Below are positions 3,000 through 61,035 of a stretch of 64,000 nt of DNA, one piece after another. Position 1 is the first letter of the stretch, and every line of letters starts with the position of its first letter. The position numbers and the translations under genes were made by a program. The notes under the pieces were generated by a model. The model was not told the DNA's origin and did not search any database. It worked only from the letters and a program-made list of their open reading frames with translations. The stretch is from the NCBI RefSeq assembly GCF_004570975.1, contig NZ_SPPC01000006.1, forward strand, positions 62,001 through 126,000, in the 5' to 3' direction. The stretch comes from Barnesiella sp. WM24. GTDB taxonomy: Bacteria; Bacteroidota; Bacteroidia; Bacteroidales; Muribaculaceae.

Positions 3000-4553
3000 T
3001 TAGATTTTGGCGGCGGTGGTGCCCCATGTCGACCGGTCGAGGTTGCGATAAGAGATTGCCTCGCTTACATGAGCGGGCATGATCGACTCCTCGCCGGCAA
3101 GGTCGGCAATGGTGCGGGCCACCTTGAGTATACGGTCATATGCCCTTGCCGACATGTCAAAGCGTTTCATGGCATATTCCAGCAACTTCATGCACTCCTT
3201 GTCAAGACGGGCATGGACCGACAGCAGACGCGAGTTCATCTGAGCATTGCAATGGATGTCGCGCTCACCGGCAAAACGCGCTGTCTGCAGCGCGCGTGCC
3301 TTAACCACTCGCTCGCGTATGGCGGCACTGCTCTCACCGCTTTTCATTGACGACAATTCCTCAAACGGCACCGGCATAATCTCCACCTGCAGGTCAATGC
3401 GGTCCATCAATGGACCCGATATACGGCTGAGATACTTATTCACCTGCCCGGGCATACATGTACACTCCTTGGACGGATGATTGTAATAGCCACACGGACA
3501 CGGATTCATCGACGCGACAAGCATAAATCCCGCCGGATAATCAATCGAGTATCTTGCCCGAGAGATACTGATATGACGGTCTTCAAGCGGCTGCCTCATC
3601 ACTTCCAGCACTGTGCGCGGAAATTCCGGAAACTCATCAAGAAAAAGCACTCCGTTATGGGCAAGCGATATTTCACCGGGCATAGGGTTACCTCCCCCGC
3701 CGACAAGCGCCACGGGAGAAATCGTGTGATGGGGAGAGCGGAACGGACGGCTTGTCATAAGCTTTGCTCCACCCTTCAGTTTTCCTGCCACAGAGTGAAT
3801 CTTGGTGGTCTCAAGCGCCTCCTGGAGTGTAAGGGGCGGCATTATCGACGGCAGCCTCTTCGCCATCATGGACTTGCCTGAACCGGGCGCACCGACGAGA
3901 AGTATATTGTGTCCTCCGGCACATGCGACCTCAAAGGCCCGCTTGACATTTTCCTGCCCCTTTACCTCTGAGAAGTCAAAATCAAAGCAGTCAACAGCCT
4001 TACCAAACTCTTCCCGCGTATTGACAACCACAGGCGACAGATTCACCCCGCCATTGAAAAAACCGACGACCTCGCTTAACGAGCTCACCCCATACACCTC
4101 TATATTATTGACGACAGCGGCTTCGGTCTCGTTAGCCTTCGGCACAATCATGCCTTTGAAGCCGAGACTGCGGGCGGCGATAGCCATCGGCAGCACTCCT
4201 TTGATAGGAAGCACCGACCCGTCGAGCGACAGTTCGCCCATAATCATGTAATCACCGAGTGTCGCCGCATCAATCTGACGTGATGCAGCAAGAATCGCAA
4301 GACTTATCGGCAAATCGTAGGCAGCACCTTCCTTCCTGACATCGGCAGGCGACATATTGACCACCACGGCATGACGCGGAAATTCAAATCCCGACTGCTT
4401 GACCGCACTTCTCACCCTCTGATAACTCTCCTTGACAGCAGCGTCAGGAAGCCCTACGAGGTTAAACGACGCACCAAGTTCCACGGTCACCTCTATCGTC
4501 ACCGTTATGGCATCAATACCTTGCACTGCGGCACCAAATGTCTTAATAAGCAT
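3000..4553 (-). CDS. YifB/ComM family Mg-chelatase-like AAA+ ATPase
   Basis: A 517-residue protein results from starting at ATG 4553; the three codons upstream begin with TTG and are less likely. It has the N-terminal Lon-protease-like domain (ChlI type, residues 1-180). The AAA+ core follows, with Walker A GAPGSGKS at 221-228, Walker B LFLDEF near 300, and a cysteine cluster (CPCGYYNH, CTCMPGQ). ComM in Vibrio is a hexameric helicase that promotes branch migration during natural transformation, and homologues are widespread in non-competent bacteria. It appears monocistronic with its own promoter box, and full length. Confidence 0.9.
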   Translation of the reverse strand: MLIKTFGAAVQGIDAITVTIEVTVELGASFNLVGLPDAAVKESYQRVRSAVKQSGFEFPRHAVVVNMSPADVRKEGAAYDLPISLAILAASRQIDAATLGDYMIMGELSLDGSVLPIKGVLPMAIAARSLGFKGMIVPKANETEAAVVNNIEVYGVSSLSEVVGFFNGGVNLSPVVVNTREEFGKAVDCFDFDFSEVKGQENVKRAFEVACAGGHNILLVGAPGSGKSMMAKRLPSIMPPLTLQEALETTKIHSVAGKLKGGAKLMTSRPFRSPHHTISPVALVGGGGNPMPGEISLAHNGVLFLDEFPEFPRTVLEVMRQPLEDRHISISRARYSIDYPAGFMLVASMNPCPCGYYNHPSKECTCMPGQVNKYLSRISGPLMDRIDLQVEIMPVPFEELSSMKSGESSAAIRERVVKARALQTARFAGERDIHCNAQMNSRLLSVHARLDKECMKLLEYAMKRFDMSARAYDRILKVARTIADLAGEESIMPAHVSEAISYRNLDRSTWGTTAAKI

Positions 4554-11648: not shown

Positions 11649-11806
11649 CCAATAACGATGCACGGACTCGGCGGATGAAACGCGGACACAGCGGATGAAA
11701 CGCGGGCGAGCTTCCACTCGCCCCTACATTGTTTGTAATGTATCCCTATAAATAAAAACCTGTAAATCACGTGGTGCACCGCGTAGCCCGCATCGCGTAG
11801 CTGTAG

Positions 11807-11929
11807 GGGCGACTGGAAGGTCGCCCGCCTTACACCAAACCATACCCCATTTGGGGATGCACACCATAATCCAAAACCGCGCACGGTGCGGACGCGGCGG
11901 ATGAAACGCGGGCGAGCTTCCACTCGCCC
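11807..11929 (+). repeat. REPIN-like element, mixed stems (C/G then G/C)
   Basis: The left REP (11807-11826) is GGGCGAC-TGGAAG-GTCGCCC, preceded by GTAGCTGTAG. The right REP (11910-11929) is the inverted GGGCGAG...CTCGCCC form followed by CTACATTGC. The spacer is 83 nt. The two ends carry different closing pairs in the stem. Confidence 0.8.
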
Positions 11930-12012
11930 CTACATTGCTTGTAATGGGTTTCTACAAATAAATACCTGTAAATCACGGGGTGCCGTATCATTGATATACC
12001 GCGTAGCTGTAG

Positions 12013-12135
12013 GGGCGACTGGAAGGTCGCCCGCTTTACACCAAATCATACCCCATTTGGGGCTGCACTCCATAAACCAAAACCGCGCACGGTGCGGACA
12101 CGGCGTATGCAACGCGGGCGAGCTTCCACTCGCCC
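12013..12135 (+). repeat. REPIN-like element, second copy
   Basis: It has the same architecture as 11807-11929, with REPs at 12013-12032 and 12116-12135 and an 83-nt spacer. The spacer is nearly identical to the first copy, indicating recent duplication. Confidence 0.8.
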
Positions 12136-12284
12136 CTACATTGCTTGTAATGTATTTCTTTAAATAACCGCCTGTAAATCACGGGGTGCCGTATCATTGA
12201 TATACCGCGTAGCCAGCACCGCGTAGCTGTAGGGGCGACTGGAAGGTCGCCCGACTTACGCAAACCGGACAACGGGCAATCAAC

Positions 12285-14225: not shown

Positions 14226-14760
14226 TCAAAACATTAAAACGGAGACACACGGTGCGGACAAGGCGGTGTGGACACGGCGGTGCGGACTCTGCTGAGGCAA
14301 CGCGGACACGGCGGATGAAACGCGGGCGAGCTTCCACTCGCCCCTACATTGCTTGTAATGTATCGCTATAAATAAACACCTGCAAATCACGGGGTGCCAT
14401 ATCATTGACATACCGCATAGCCCGTACCGCGTAGCTGTAGGGGCGACTGGAAGGTCGCCCGCCTTACACAAACCTATCGGAGGATGCACACCATAATCAA
14501 AAACCGCGCACGGTGCGGACACGGCGGATGAAACGCGGGCGAGCTTCCACTCGCCCCTACATTGCTTGTAATGTATCGCTATAAATAAACTCCTGTAAAT
14601 CACGTGGTGCCGTATCATTGATATACCGCGTAGCTGTAATGTATTTATACAAATAGACACCTGTAAATCACGTGGTACCGTATCATTGATATACCGCGTA
14701 GCCCGTACCGCGTAGCTGTAGGGGCGACTGGAAGGTCGCCCGCGTTCCCGCACTCCGTGG
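14226..14760. repeat. REP/REPIN-like palindrome array (right of the secreted-protein gene)
   Basis: REPs lie at 14324-14343, 14441-14460, 14537-14556 and 14722-14741, in the same orientation pattern as the 11.7-12.3 kb array. One complete outward-facing pair spans 14441-14556 (76-nt spacer). Between 14557 and 14721 the internal segment TGTAAATCACGTGGT...ATTGATATACCGCGTAG occurs twice in tandem, an internal duplication. No gene is credible here; long open frames are repeat translations. Confidence 0.85.
14441..14556 (+). repeat. REPIN-like element, third copy of the mixed-stem type
   Basis: The left REP has the C/G stem (14441-14460) and the right REP the G/C stem (14537-14556), with a 76-nt spacer. 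The outer flanks GTAGCTGTAG and CTACATTGC match the other elements. Confidence 0.8.
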
Positions 14761-49936: not shown

Positions 49937-50475
49937 CCCATCATGCACCATATAGGATATTTCAGGCTGTTACCCGCCGACCGTTGTTATCAACCACACT
50001 TTTTATATTAGAAGAAAAAATTTTTTGAAAATCTCCTTTATCTGATATTGGTAATAGCTGTTGACAGCAATGATAAGTTTTGCTGCATTTGCTTGCATAT
50101 TAAGTTATTGTAGTCGTGTAAACAATATTTTCATTGTTATCAACATGTTAATCGCCACTATTACAGGTAAATCACCGTATTATCAACATATGGTTAATAA
50201 GTGGCTATGTAAATAAAAATCATGGACCGCCGGTATTGATAAGTATGGCAATCATGGTTGATATCTGCACAAAATCTGATACATAAAAAATTTTGAATAA
50301 CGCGCATAATGACTAATACTCGCTCAATTCCAAATGCGCAAATATAATTATAAAAAACCTTCAAAAAACATATTATCATAAATCAACATAGTTTTCAACA
50401 ATTATCAACACATAAATCCACAAGCAATATACATATAAAATACACCGCGTATAAAATACCATCGCGTAGCTGTAG

Positions 50476-50579
50476 GGGCGAGTGGAAGCTCGCCCGAAAT
50501 ACACGCATTTCGAAACACGGTGTTGTACACGCATGGTTGATTACTCATGGTTGATATGCGGGCGAGCTTCCACTCGCCC
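50476..50579 (+). repeat. REPIN element R1
   Basis: REPs at 50476-50495 (GGGCGAG-TGGAAG-CTCGCCC) and 50560-50579 (its inverse) are separated by 64 nt. The outer flanks are GTAGCTGTAG on the left and CTACATTGCATGTG on the right. Confidence 0.85.
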
Positions 50580-50669
50580 CTACATTGCATGTGTATATCG
50601 TCATAAATCAACATAGTTTTCAACAATTGTCAACACACAAAATCCACAGGCAATATACATGCAATATAC

Positions 50670-50782
50670 ATATAAAATACATCGCATATAAAATACACCG
50701 CATATAAAATACATCGCATATAAAATACATCGCGTATAAAATACACCGCATATAAAATACATCGCGTATAAAATACCACCGC
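50670..50782 (+). repeat. Tandem 16-bp repeat, seven copies
   Basis: Seven near-identical units of ATATAAAATACATCGC (varying A/G at position 1 and T/C at position 13; the last unit is 17 nt) run directly into REPIN R2. Shorter versions flank the other REPINs. Confidence 0.9.
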
Positions 50783-50792
50783 GTAGCTGTAG

Positions 50793-50896
50793 GGGCGAGT
50801 GGAAGCTCGCCCGAAATACACGCATTGCGAAACACGGTGTTGTACACGCATGGTTGATTACTCATGGTTGATGCGCGGGCGAGCTTCCACTCGCCC
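50793..50896 (+). repeat. REPIN element R2
   Basis: REPs at 50793-50812 and 50877-50896 have a 64-nt spacer that is nearly identical to that of R1 and the same orientation. It lies 180 nt upstream of the RAYT gene. Confidence 0.85.
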
Positions 50897-51063
50897 CTAC
50901 ATTGCATGTGTATATTGTATGTATACATGCATGCGTATATTTTATACACGATATATTTGCTGCGGGGGGGTATTGATGGTAAAATTATGCAATGCTTACA
51001 ATAAATATTTCGTAAACATAAAAATTTAATTGTTAAAATTACATTTGTTTGAAATCATAATTG

Positions 51064-51071
51064 TATATTTG
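51064..51071 (+). promoter_or_regulatory. -7 promoter box (TATATTTG) for the RAYT gene, leaderless start
   Basis: An exact TAnnTTTG match ends 5 nt before ATG 51077. A TTTG at 51044-51047 could be the -33 element, but the 16-nt spacing is short. Confidence 0.5.
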
Positions 51072-51076
51072 TTTCT

Positions 51077-51571
51077 ATGTCTAAATTTCCTACAAGAAAA
51101 AATGTCAGGGTTAACTGGCATGATTACAATGGAGGCGCATATTTCATCACGGTATGCACATATAATAGGCATCACTATTTTGGTGAAATTACCGGTGATG
51201 TCATAAATTATAATCCACTGGGAAAGTATCTTAAATCCATATTGACAGATTATAATAAATACCATCCCGATATCGAGATTCCACTGTTTACTATCATGCC
51301 AAATCATTTCCATGCCATATTTTTTGTTAATCAAGGCATGGATCCTTATTCGCAGGAGTATGACAATTTAAAGCACAAAAAAATTTTGTCAGTCAATGTA
51401 GCTACGATAAAAGCATTAACCACACGATATTCCAGGCATGCAAATATTGAATTTAAGTGGCAGCGAGGGTATCACGAACATATCATCAGGGATATAGGCA
51501 AAGCGAATTTTATATTTGAATACATTGAAAATAATGTATTGCGCTGGGCAGCAGATAAATACAATACCTAA
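51077..51571 (+). CDS. REP-associated tyrosine transposase (RAYT, Y1/HUH family)
   Basis: This 164-residue single-strand DNA transposase is related to IS200/IS605 TnpA. AYFITVCTYNR lies at residues 21-31. The HUH metal site MPNHFHAI places histidines at 77 and 79. The catalytic tyrosine is probably Y132 in RGYHEHIIRD. RAYTs cleave and join REP hairpins and are usually domesticated single-copy genes. Here paired REP palindromes lie on both sides (50793-50896 and 51678-51767), which strongly supports the assignment. The gene is AT-rich and intact, and its start codon follows the promoter box by 5 nt. Confidence 0.88.
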   Translation: MSKFPTRKNVRVNWHDYNGGAYFITVCTYNRHHYFGEITGDVINYNPLGKYLKSILTDYNKYHPDIEIPLFTIMPNHFHAIFFVNQGMDPYSQEYDNLKHKKILSVNVATIKALTTRYSRHANIEFKWQRGYHEHIIRDIGKANFIFEYIENNVLRWAADKYNT

Positions 51572-52016
51572 ATCATTTATATACCCGGATTCATTGATAG
51601 TTATGCATTGTAAAATGCACAAATGTACATGCAGGTATACATATAACATACATATGCAATATACACAAGCAATGTAGGGGCGAGTGGAAGCTCGCCCGCG
51701 TATCAACCATGCGTGTACAACGCCGTATTTCGCAATGCATGTGTTTCGGGCGAGCTTCCACTCGCCCCTACAGCTACGCGGTGTATTTTAACGTGATATA
51801 TTTTATGCGCGATGGTAATTTTTGCGCGATGTATTTTTATACGCGGTGTATTGTATTTTATACGCGATGGTATATTATACATGATGTATTTTATACGCGG
51901 TATTATCGGCTACGCGGGGGGTGTTTGATTTTGTTTGTGTGATGACTTTATGGTTGTTTTATATGAGAAAATATGACATTTTGAACAAATATATACGTGT
52001 TTTAATTTTTTTTGGT
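51572..52016 (+). repeat. REPIN-containing intergenic region downstream of the RAYT
   Basis: No gene is visible here. The region contains REPIN R3 (51678-51767) and degenerate copies of the TATACGCGATGTATTTTA-type repeat from 51775 to 51900. The segment TACGCGG-TATTATCGGCTACGCGG at 51894-51917 recurs inverted at 59985-60013. Confidence 0.7.
51678..51767 (-). repeat. REPIN element R3, inverted relative to R1/R2
   Basis: REPs at 51678-51697 and 51748-51767 are separated by 50 nt. The CAATGTAG end comes first and CTACAGCTACGCG last, the reverse of R1 and R2, so the RAYT gene sits between oppositely oriented elements. Confidence 0.85.
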
Positions 52017-59923: not shown

Positions 59924-60140
59924 GTAAAAAACATCATATACCGTCATAACATCAACGACTTTTCATTTTGTTTGCCAATGATAATACCGCGTAGCCGATA
60001 ATACCATCGCGTATAAAATATACGCATGCACGTATACATATGCAATGTAACACATGCAATGCATACATACAATATCCACATACACGTATACATACAATAT
60101 ACACATGCAGGTATACATACAATATACACATGCAATGTAG

Positions 60141-60230
60141 GGGCGAGTGGAAGCTCGCCCGCGTATCAACCATGCGTGTATAACACCGTGTTTCGCAATG
60201 CGTGTATTTCGGGCGAGCTTCCACTCGCCC
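60141..60230 (-). repeat. REPIN element R4
   Basis: REPs at 60141-60160 and 60211-60230 are separated by 50 nt. Orientation and spacer closely match R3. Confidence 0.85.
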
Positions 60231-60400
60231 CTACAGCTACGCGATGTATTTTATATGCGATGTATTTTATATGTATATTGCATGTATACCGTATTGCATC
60301 ATGACCGTTGATGAATCGCATGCACATTACCTGTGTATTTTGTTTGTTGACAATTGTTGAAAACTATGTTGATTTATGACGATATACACATGCAATGTAG

Positions 60401-60502
60401 GGGCGAGTGGAAGCTCGCCCGCACATCAACCATGAGCATCAACCATGCGTGTACAACACCGTGTTCCGCAATGCGTGTATTCGGGCGAGCTTCCACTCGC
60501 CC
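60401..60502 (-). repeat. REPIN element R5
   Basis: REPs at 60401-60420 and 60483-60502 are separated by 62 nt. It is flanked on both sides by copies of GACAATTGTTGAAAACTATG and corresponds to R1 in the other arm. Confidence 0.85.
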
Positions 60503-61035
60503 CTACAGCTACGCGATGTATTTTATACGCGATGTATTTTATATGTATGTTGTATGTATACGTGCATGTGGATTTGTGTGTTGACAATTGTTGAAAACTA
60601 TGTTGATTTATGATGATATATTTTGTGAAGGTTTTTTATAATTATATTTGCCTATTTGGGATTGGTGTCTTATTAGAGATTGTGCGCGTTATTCAAAATT
60701 TTTTATGTATCAGATTTTGTGCAGATATCAACCATGATTGCAATACTTATCAATACCGACGGTCTGTGATTTTTATTTACATAGCCACTTATTAACCATG
60801 TGTTGATAATGCAGTGATTTACCTGTAATAGTGGCGGTTAACATGTTGATAACAACGAAAGTAATGTTTATACGACTACAATAACTTAATATGCAAGCAA
60901 ATGAAGCAAAACTTATCATTGCTATTAACAGCTATTACTATAACCTCATAAAAGAGATTTTTAAAAAATTTTTTCTTCTAATATAAAAAGTATGGTTGAT
61001 AACAAGGGTTGACGGGTAACATGTAGGACGGGCAT

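Follow-up and report, generated by a model that had tools for sequence, protein, structure and literature searches.

The window analyzed here, a 64,000-nucleotide (nt) stretch of the genome of Barnesiella sp. WM24, carries a gene for a tyrosine transposase of the kind associated with repetitive extragenic palindromes (REPs), a RAYT, which lies among pairs of inverted REPs known as REPINs. The palindrome of this locus, GGGCGAGTGGAAGCTCGCCC, forms three REPINs, R1 to R3 (Table 1). All six 20-mers listed in the original prediction were found exactly, and the gene does lie between REPINs of opposite orientation. R1 and R2 read GCGTAGCT^GTAG...CTAC^ATTGC, and R3, in the reverse orientation, reads CAAT^GTAG...CTAC^AGCTACGC (the caret marks the outer border of the REP).

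The RAYT gene and its palindromes

The REPs have a GTAG foot followed by the stem GGGCGAG; with three G-C pairs at the base of the stem, they correspond to the canonical long REP type. At the RAYT locus, the stems are perfect over 7 bp. The spacers of R1 and R2 measured 64 nt each and that of R3 50 nt, and 83-nt spacers were present in the window array at 11.8-12.1 kb, in agreement with the long spacers that had been described. When folded, R1 and R3 each formed one long hairpin (z -8.4 and -8.7, respectively, relative to dinucleotide shuffles). Allowing up to 3 mismatches, the 20-mer matched the window 20 times (15 matches were exact), compared to a mean of 0.00 in 100 shuffles. In 5 of the 20 matches, the stem was changed to GGGCGAC...GTCGCCC, with both sides altered together; the two stem types are called GAG and GAC below. 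All REPINs of the RAYT locus and of the array at 60 kb were of the GAG/GAG type. No Rfam family matched the window at gathering thresholds.

The sole NCBIfam match of the RAYT protein was REP_Tyr_transpos (REP-associated tyrosine transposase; E 1.6e-15, 57.3 bits). For residue conservation, 31 sequences were aligned: the window RAYT, its 29 best-matching loci in the family sample described below, and a degenerate second gene, L032. H77, H79, W128, Q129, and Y149 were each kept in 30 of the 31 sequences, H135 in 28, and R138 in all 31; position 134 is E in the window RAYT and D in 29 sequences. H77 and H79 are thus the HUH histidines, as originally assigned, but the catalytic tyrosine is Y149 and not Y132. 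The latter falls in the WQxxY segment, which is variable (Y in 22/31, F in 7/31), whereas Y149 is the conserved tyrosine of the Y motif and is located within YIENN. The offsets of W128-Q129-E134-H135-R138 are those of W94-Q95-E100-H101-R104, given as the GTAG-reading residues of the E. coli enzyme in a 2018 survey (PMC6006769, cited from excerpts throughout).

The motifs NHFH and WQ fit the NH[IFV]H and WQ of subclass 2.4, and by its motifs and REP type the gene appears to be closest to subclass 2.4, or Bertels group 4. According to the survey excerpts, this subclass is abundant in Cyanobacteria and Bacteroidetes and has canonical GTAG REPs (PMC6006769). Because Bacteroidetes are already listed there, the proposed extension of REPIN-RAYT systems beyond Gammaproteobacteria holds only weakly. 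The same excerpts describe REPs inside the RAYT reading frame as a trait unique to subclass 2.4 and present in many of its members (PMC6006769); no REP was inserted in the frame of the window RAYT itself.

The intact RAYT is present as one copy in the genome and is thus a single gene and no multi-copy insertion sequence. The other genome match, with 33% identity along part of its length, is a RAYT-like open reading frame (ORF) of 160 aa at L032:1495-1977 (G000:C37, ~186.26 kb; G000 is the window's genome). In L032, the HUH histidines are both missing (PNGFD), as are the catalytic Tyr and the Q of WQ, while W and R138 are retained; judged by these residues, L032 is dead or domesticated. It was rejected as a partner, since these residues are lost and no GTAG hairpin was found in a scan of its 3.3-kb locus.

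Table 1. Positions of the RAYT, the REPs, and the IS200-like TnpA (window positions unless a contig or locus is given)
Feature	Position	Strand	Description
RAYT	51077..51571	+	164 aa; H77/H79 HUH, W128/Q129, E134/H135/R138, Y149 catalytic Tyr
REP R1a	50472..50495	+	GAG type, L end (GCGTAGCT^GTAG); 20-mer at 50476-50495
REP R1b	50560..50583	-	GAG type, R end (GCAAT^GTAG); R1a+R1b = REPIN R1; 20-mer at 50560-50579
REP R2a	50789..50812	+	GAG type, L end; 20-mer at 50793-50812
REP R2b	50877..50900	-	GAG type, R end; R2a+R2b = REPIN R2; 20-mer at 50877-50896
REP R3a	51674..51697	+	GAG type, R end (GCAAT^GTAG); 20-mer at 51678-51697
REP R3b	51748..51771	-	GAG type, L end; R3a+R3b = REPIN R3, opposite orientation; 20-mer at 51748-51767
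Array of two GAG/GAG REPINs	60137..60506	.	REPINs 60137-60234 and 60397-60506
Array of six REPs	11704..12252	.	GAG (-) alternating with compensated GAC type (+)
Array of four REPs	14324..14741	.	GAG (-) alternating with GAC (+)
IS200-like TnpA	L130:3312-3752 (G000:C38:156814-157251)		146 aa; flanks 3200-3920; PDHIH, YIKGQKEHH

Copies, arrays, and polarity across the genome

The window's genome (3.49 Mb in 40 contigs) contains 131 exact copies of a 21-mer of the palindrome. The pattern GTAGGGGCGAN{6,10}TCGCCC, which describes the GTAG-tagged hairpin, matched 219 times (85 copies of the GAC type), compared to 0 matches of a reversed-pattern control. The palindrome is thus abundant elsewhere in the genome, in numbers far beyond chance, as had been proposed. 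Together with the shuffled-window counts, these data rule out chance palindromes.

REPs were mapped in the window and in the stretches around the listed places, allowing up to 3 mismatches outside the loop. At least 226 REPs were mapped, 205 of them exact; further strict copies sit outside the mapped stretches, and the mapped counts refer to the matches listed. Contigs C1, C3, C12, and C15 start or end within ~70 nt of a REP, and the copy number is therefore likely understated. The 226 mapped REPs fall into 31 clusters, 4 of which are single copies. Clusters of at least four hold 219 of the 226, and REP orientation within them mostly alternates. Spacer identity (convergent REPs, spacers up to 110 nt) was 0.85 within clusters (132 comparisons) and 0.40 between clusters (3271 comparisons). 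Since spacers resemble one another within an array but not across arrays, the arrays seem to have grown locally.

Two kinds of irregular copies were noted. The array at G000:C6:66856-67276 (L096) consists of six GAG REPs in one orientation with a period of ~79 nt, in contrast to the alternating arrays. Three REPs (G000:C36:259466, G000:C11:30776, and G000:C38:34067) have a loop (CTTCCA or CTCCCG) that runs opposite to their stem, which might point to flipping of the hairpin or to template switching.

The ends of the REPINs were compared in 96 convergent pairs, with at most 400 nt between the REPs. In 94 pairs, one end and only one read AGCT^GTAG (L), and the other end (R) was GCAAT^GTAG or GCAGT^GTAG in 90 cases and a variant in 4. 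In the remaining 2 pairs, one end is cut after only CT or T at a contig end; because the contig stops there, they do not contradict the rule of one L end. GAC was paired with GAG in 80 of the 96 pairs (GAC at L in 75, GAG at L in 4, and 1 truncated), 16 pairs were GAG/GAG, and none was GAC/GAC. Each REPIN is thus directional, as the original prediction had it, with one L end and one R end, and most have GAC at L and GAG at R.

Relatives of the RAYT and the case for a REPtron

The family sample comprised 247 genomes, including that of the window. RAYT matches at E <= 1e-5 were found in 103 of the 247, the best one outside the window's genome being 48% identical; a RAYT protein search of genome contigs found no relatives. 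The REP pattern of the window's genome had 0 copies in 245 of the 246 other family genomes, and the remaining genome, G049, has one unrelated pair. When a named-species collection was scanned with the 24-mer pattern GTAGGGGCGASYNGRAGSTCGCCC, which covers both stem types, 18 stretches of metagenome-assembled genomes (MAGs) from several phyla matched: 9 from Acidobacteria, 4 from Armatimonadetes, and 5 others including one Bacteroidota MAG. These matches may be similar by descent or by convergence. In the open-licence literature, no paper among the matches listed treated REPs in Bacteroidales genera.

Among the RAYT loci of relatives, the 29 best-matching were compared with 29 control loci of subclass 1.2 TnpA genes. 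A perfect GTAGGG hairpin was present at 21 of the 29 RAYT loci and at 1 of the 29 control loci, and 8 of the 29 relatives carry a REP within the frame of the RAYT gene. The REP stems are diverse, yet some are common to several genomes; the GGACGCACG stem, for example, was found at L036, L050, L051, L052, and L061. Because stems recur across genomes, REP stem and RAYT lineage do not correspond one to one.

The REPs of relatives were counted with a generic pattern, outside of which the window genome's own REP falls. It matched 61 of the 247 family genomes. At least two generic REPs were present in 26 of 56 RAYT-positive genomes (E <= 1e-15) versus 25 of 191 others (Fisher p 4e-7), and with RAYT matches at E <= 1e-5 the ratio was 30/103 versus 21/144 (p 0.007); both p values are uncorrected for kinship. 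Thus, the proposal that only genomes with the RAYT carry the palindrome applies to the exact palindrome in the family sample, but for related REPs it is reduced to a statistical link with many exceptions. The link between REPs and RAYTs in this family is real and not strict. Genomes G002, G145, and G149, for example, have more than 150 related REPs each and no RAYT match at E <= 1e-5.

Judging from the gene and its repeats, the locus very probably represents a REPtron, in which a RAYT, an HUH/Y1 single-strand transposase most similar to subclass 2.4 (Bertels group 4), resides among cognate REPINs that it would disperse in trans. The transposase probably helps to spread the palindrome pairs around it. 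Several results weigh against this interpretation. The NCBIfam score of the RAYT is below the equivalog cut-off of 80 bits, which is a naming threshold and not a biological criterion, and its Pfam Y1_Tnp match (E 1.3e-4, 22.5 bits) is just under the cut-off of 23. Its Y motif is YIENNV, compared to YIxNNP in subclass 2.4. No PDB sequence matched at E <= 0.01, and the single-sequence AlphaFold prediction was poor (mean pLDDT, the predicted local distance difference test score, 40). Among the relatives, 8 of the 29 RAYT loci had no perfect GTAGGG hairpin, and some REP stems are common to relatives of different genera. Finally, of the 26 family genomes in which related REPs numbered 10 or more, 11 had no RAYT match at E <= 1e-5, indicating that REPs can persist or be moved without a RAYT.

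This persistence in RAYT-negative relatives also fits another explanation, namely that the arrays are passive relics, with a domesticated or idle RAYT and with copy numbers that shift only through recombination, slippage, and gene conversion from one array to another. The similarity of spacers within but not between arrays and the concentration of mapped copies in clusters of at least four are compatible with it, as are the three inverted loops, which hairpin-driven rearrangement would yield. However, 31 separate clusters, 4 of which are single copies, are beyond the reach of local duplication alone, and the catalytic and GTAG-reading residues of the window RAYT are intact. As L032 lost its HUH motif and Tyr while the window RAYT did not, the intact gene appears to be kept. 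We regard passive relics as a rather unlikely account of the arrays.

Far less probable still is that the palindromes are transcription terminators or another regulatory repeat of the host and that their link to the RAYT is incidental. They do form strong hairpins and are mostly located outside long ORFs: only 34 of the 226 mapped REPs overlap an ORF of at least 250 aa, although such ORFs make up 62% of the searched DNA. Against a host function stand the restriction of the sequence to one species of the sample, the directional paired ends and tandem arrays, and the fact that most RAYT loci tested in relatives have GTAGGG hairpins next to them.

If the locus works as a REPtron, the RAYT would bind the folded GTAG stem-loop on single-stranded DNA and read the GTAG foot with W128, Q129, E134, H135, and R138. 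The HUH site and Y149 would then cut at a dinucleotide chosen by GTAG. In excerpts of PMC8266576, known TnpAREP enzymes cut at CT (or CA), and GTAG is implicated in the choice of the site. Because of this preference, the cut most likely falls at the CT that immediately precedes GTAG at the L end (GCGTAG-CT^GTAG). Cutting would disperse REPINs in trans, and recombination or slippage would then probably expand them into tandem arrays where they landed.

A second element within the REPINs and known systems

Eleven convergent GAG/GAC REPINs with spacers of 287-301 nt, and one with a spacer of 362 nt, enclose a cassette of two inverted halves. Its hairpins are ATCCCC/GGGGAT and TAGCCGTGGGT/ACCCACGG, and it also contains a GTTTCCGTAGGAAT-type repeat. 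Two further copies lie between REPINs in contig C7. The orientation of the cassette relative to the GAG end was identical in 11 cases, which suggests that one founder spread inside a REPIN. With a strict pattern for the middle hairpin, 32 matches were obtained in this genome and 0 in 118 other family genomes; a looser pattern gave 33 in this genome and 6 in G057, one of 13 congeners, in which a gene-less copy was also found (L164). Two tandem cassette copies occur alone in C35 (151.8 kb), with no such REP within the 3 kb examined, and this solitary occurrence rules out that the nested element is a mere long REPIN spacer. As a separate observation, many REPIN spacers of 76-103 nt in C3, C7, C11, C14, C15, C37, and C38 contain a single ATCCCC-n-GGGGAT-like hairpin. 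It resembles the outer hairpin of the nested element and might be a pre-insertion site or a deletion footprint.

At C38:156.7-158.0 kb, cassette ends flank a gene for an IS200-like TnpA together with a second, truncated copy, and a GAG REP lies next to them. The protein has the subclass 1.2 signature PDH[IV]H and Y---Q--HH, matches Pfam Y1_Tnp with 87 bits, and has 8 PDB matches, all of them transposases and ISHp608 included. It is the apparent source of the gene-less nested element. Best-matching TnpA loci were compared within the family (30, including this one) and outside it (28 usable of 29, one being dropped because of a short flank). Inverted arms scoring at least 16 across the gene were present at 24 of the 30 family loci, compared to 1 of 1500 shuffles and 8 of 1000 random window placements. 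Inverted arms scored better than direct ones at 21 of the 30 loci, and direct arms were better at 8. In the excerpted survey, subclass 1.2 TnpA genes generally lack the typical terminal IS200 secondary structures, a usual and not absolute trait (PMC6006769); the TnpA described here departs from it with its inverted ends, as do relatives in the family (24 of the 30 loci).

The anatomy of the nested element in the family is real. With moderate confidence we propose that, in this family, an IS200-like TnpA lineage with the subclass 1.2 signature became a second REPtron-like system, and that its gene-less copies of ~250 nt ride in the REPINs of an unrelated RAYT. At both proposed ends, in inverted orientation, lies a multi-hairpin module with ATCCCC/GGGGAT as the outer hairpin, a TAGCC-stem in the middle, and a short inner hairpin. 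The element would be mobile and served by two single-strand transposases. This proposal is weakened by the arms, which fold with z < -2 (mononucleotide shuffles) at only 11 of the 24 inverted-arm family loci, and by the scarcity of inverted ends outside the family, where 6 of 28 loci scored at least 16 and inverted exceeded direct in 8 of 28.

The second element is present at 14 array sites and its TnpA gene in the same genome, which would be in line with array spread being driven partly by the nested element and its TnpA, and not by the RAYT. We consider this improbable: according to the hairpin patterns used, several arrays, including the RAYT locus, are free of the nested element, and the element also occurs on its own in C35.

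The family contains many related RAYTs, most of the examined ones beside GTAGGG REPs of varied stems, so that enzyme-palindrome specificity and the GTAG cut-site rule become testable in one lineage. The fixed design with two ends and two palindromes clearly predicts that the L end is cut at CT^GTAG. If confirmed, the nested element would be the DNA partner that its transposase subclass is described as generally not having, and it would be a natural instance of a single-strand element inside another. It is the part that most deserves the attention of specialists.

The E. coli REP system also has two related palindromes, inverted REP pairs, and one full-length gene flanked by REPINs, but there the stem is bulged and the enzyme belongs to subclass 2.2, in contrast to the perfect 7-bp stems found here. 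In Pseudomonas, REPINs associated with group 3 RAYTs are GTAG-tagged and the RAYT is present, as in this genome. Unlike these, the REPINs described here are mostly clustered in arrays and are built from two palindrome types.

The closest match is to the subclass 2.4 / group 4 REPtrons as excerpted from PMC6006769. Shared features are the NH[IFV]H, WQ, and YIxNN motifs, canonical GTAG REPs of the long kind that have GGG at the foot and flank the gene, REPs inside the gene in relatives, and occurrence in Bacteroidetes and Cyanobacteria. The Y motif differs, ending in V or I and not in P in most of the aligned family members, as do the two-palindrome, two-end directionality and the tandem arrays documented here. 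It is well supported that this is a REPIN-RAYT locus of an already known type, to which directionality and arrays are the added detail.

The TnpA of the nested element resembles subclass 1.2 IS200-like enzymes (PMC6006769, excerpts) in its PDHIH and Y---Q--HH signature and in its occurrence in Bacteroidetes, but the element differs in its inverted multi-hairpin ends and gene-less copies. Insertion sequences living within REPs are exemplified by ISPpu9 of Pseudomonas putida (PMC8450116, excerpts); here, in contrast, the guest that occupies the REPIN spacer is itself an end-only hairpin element.
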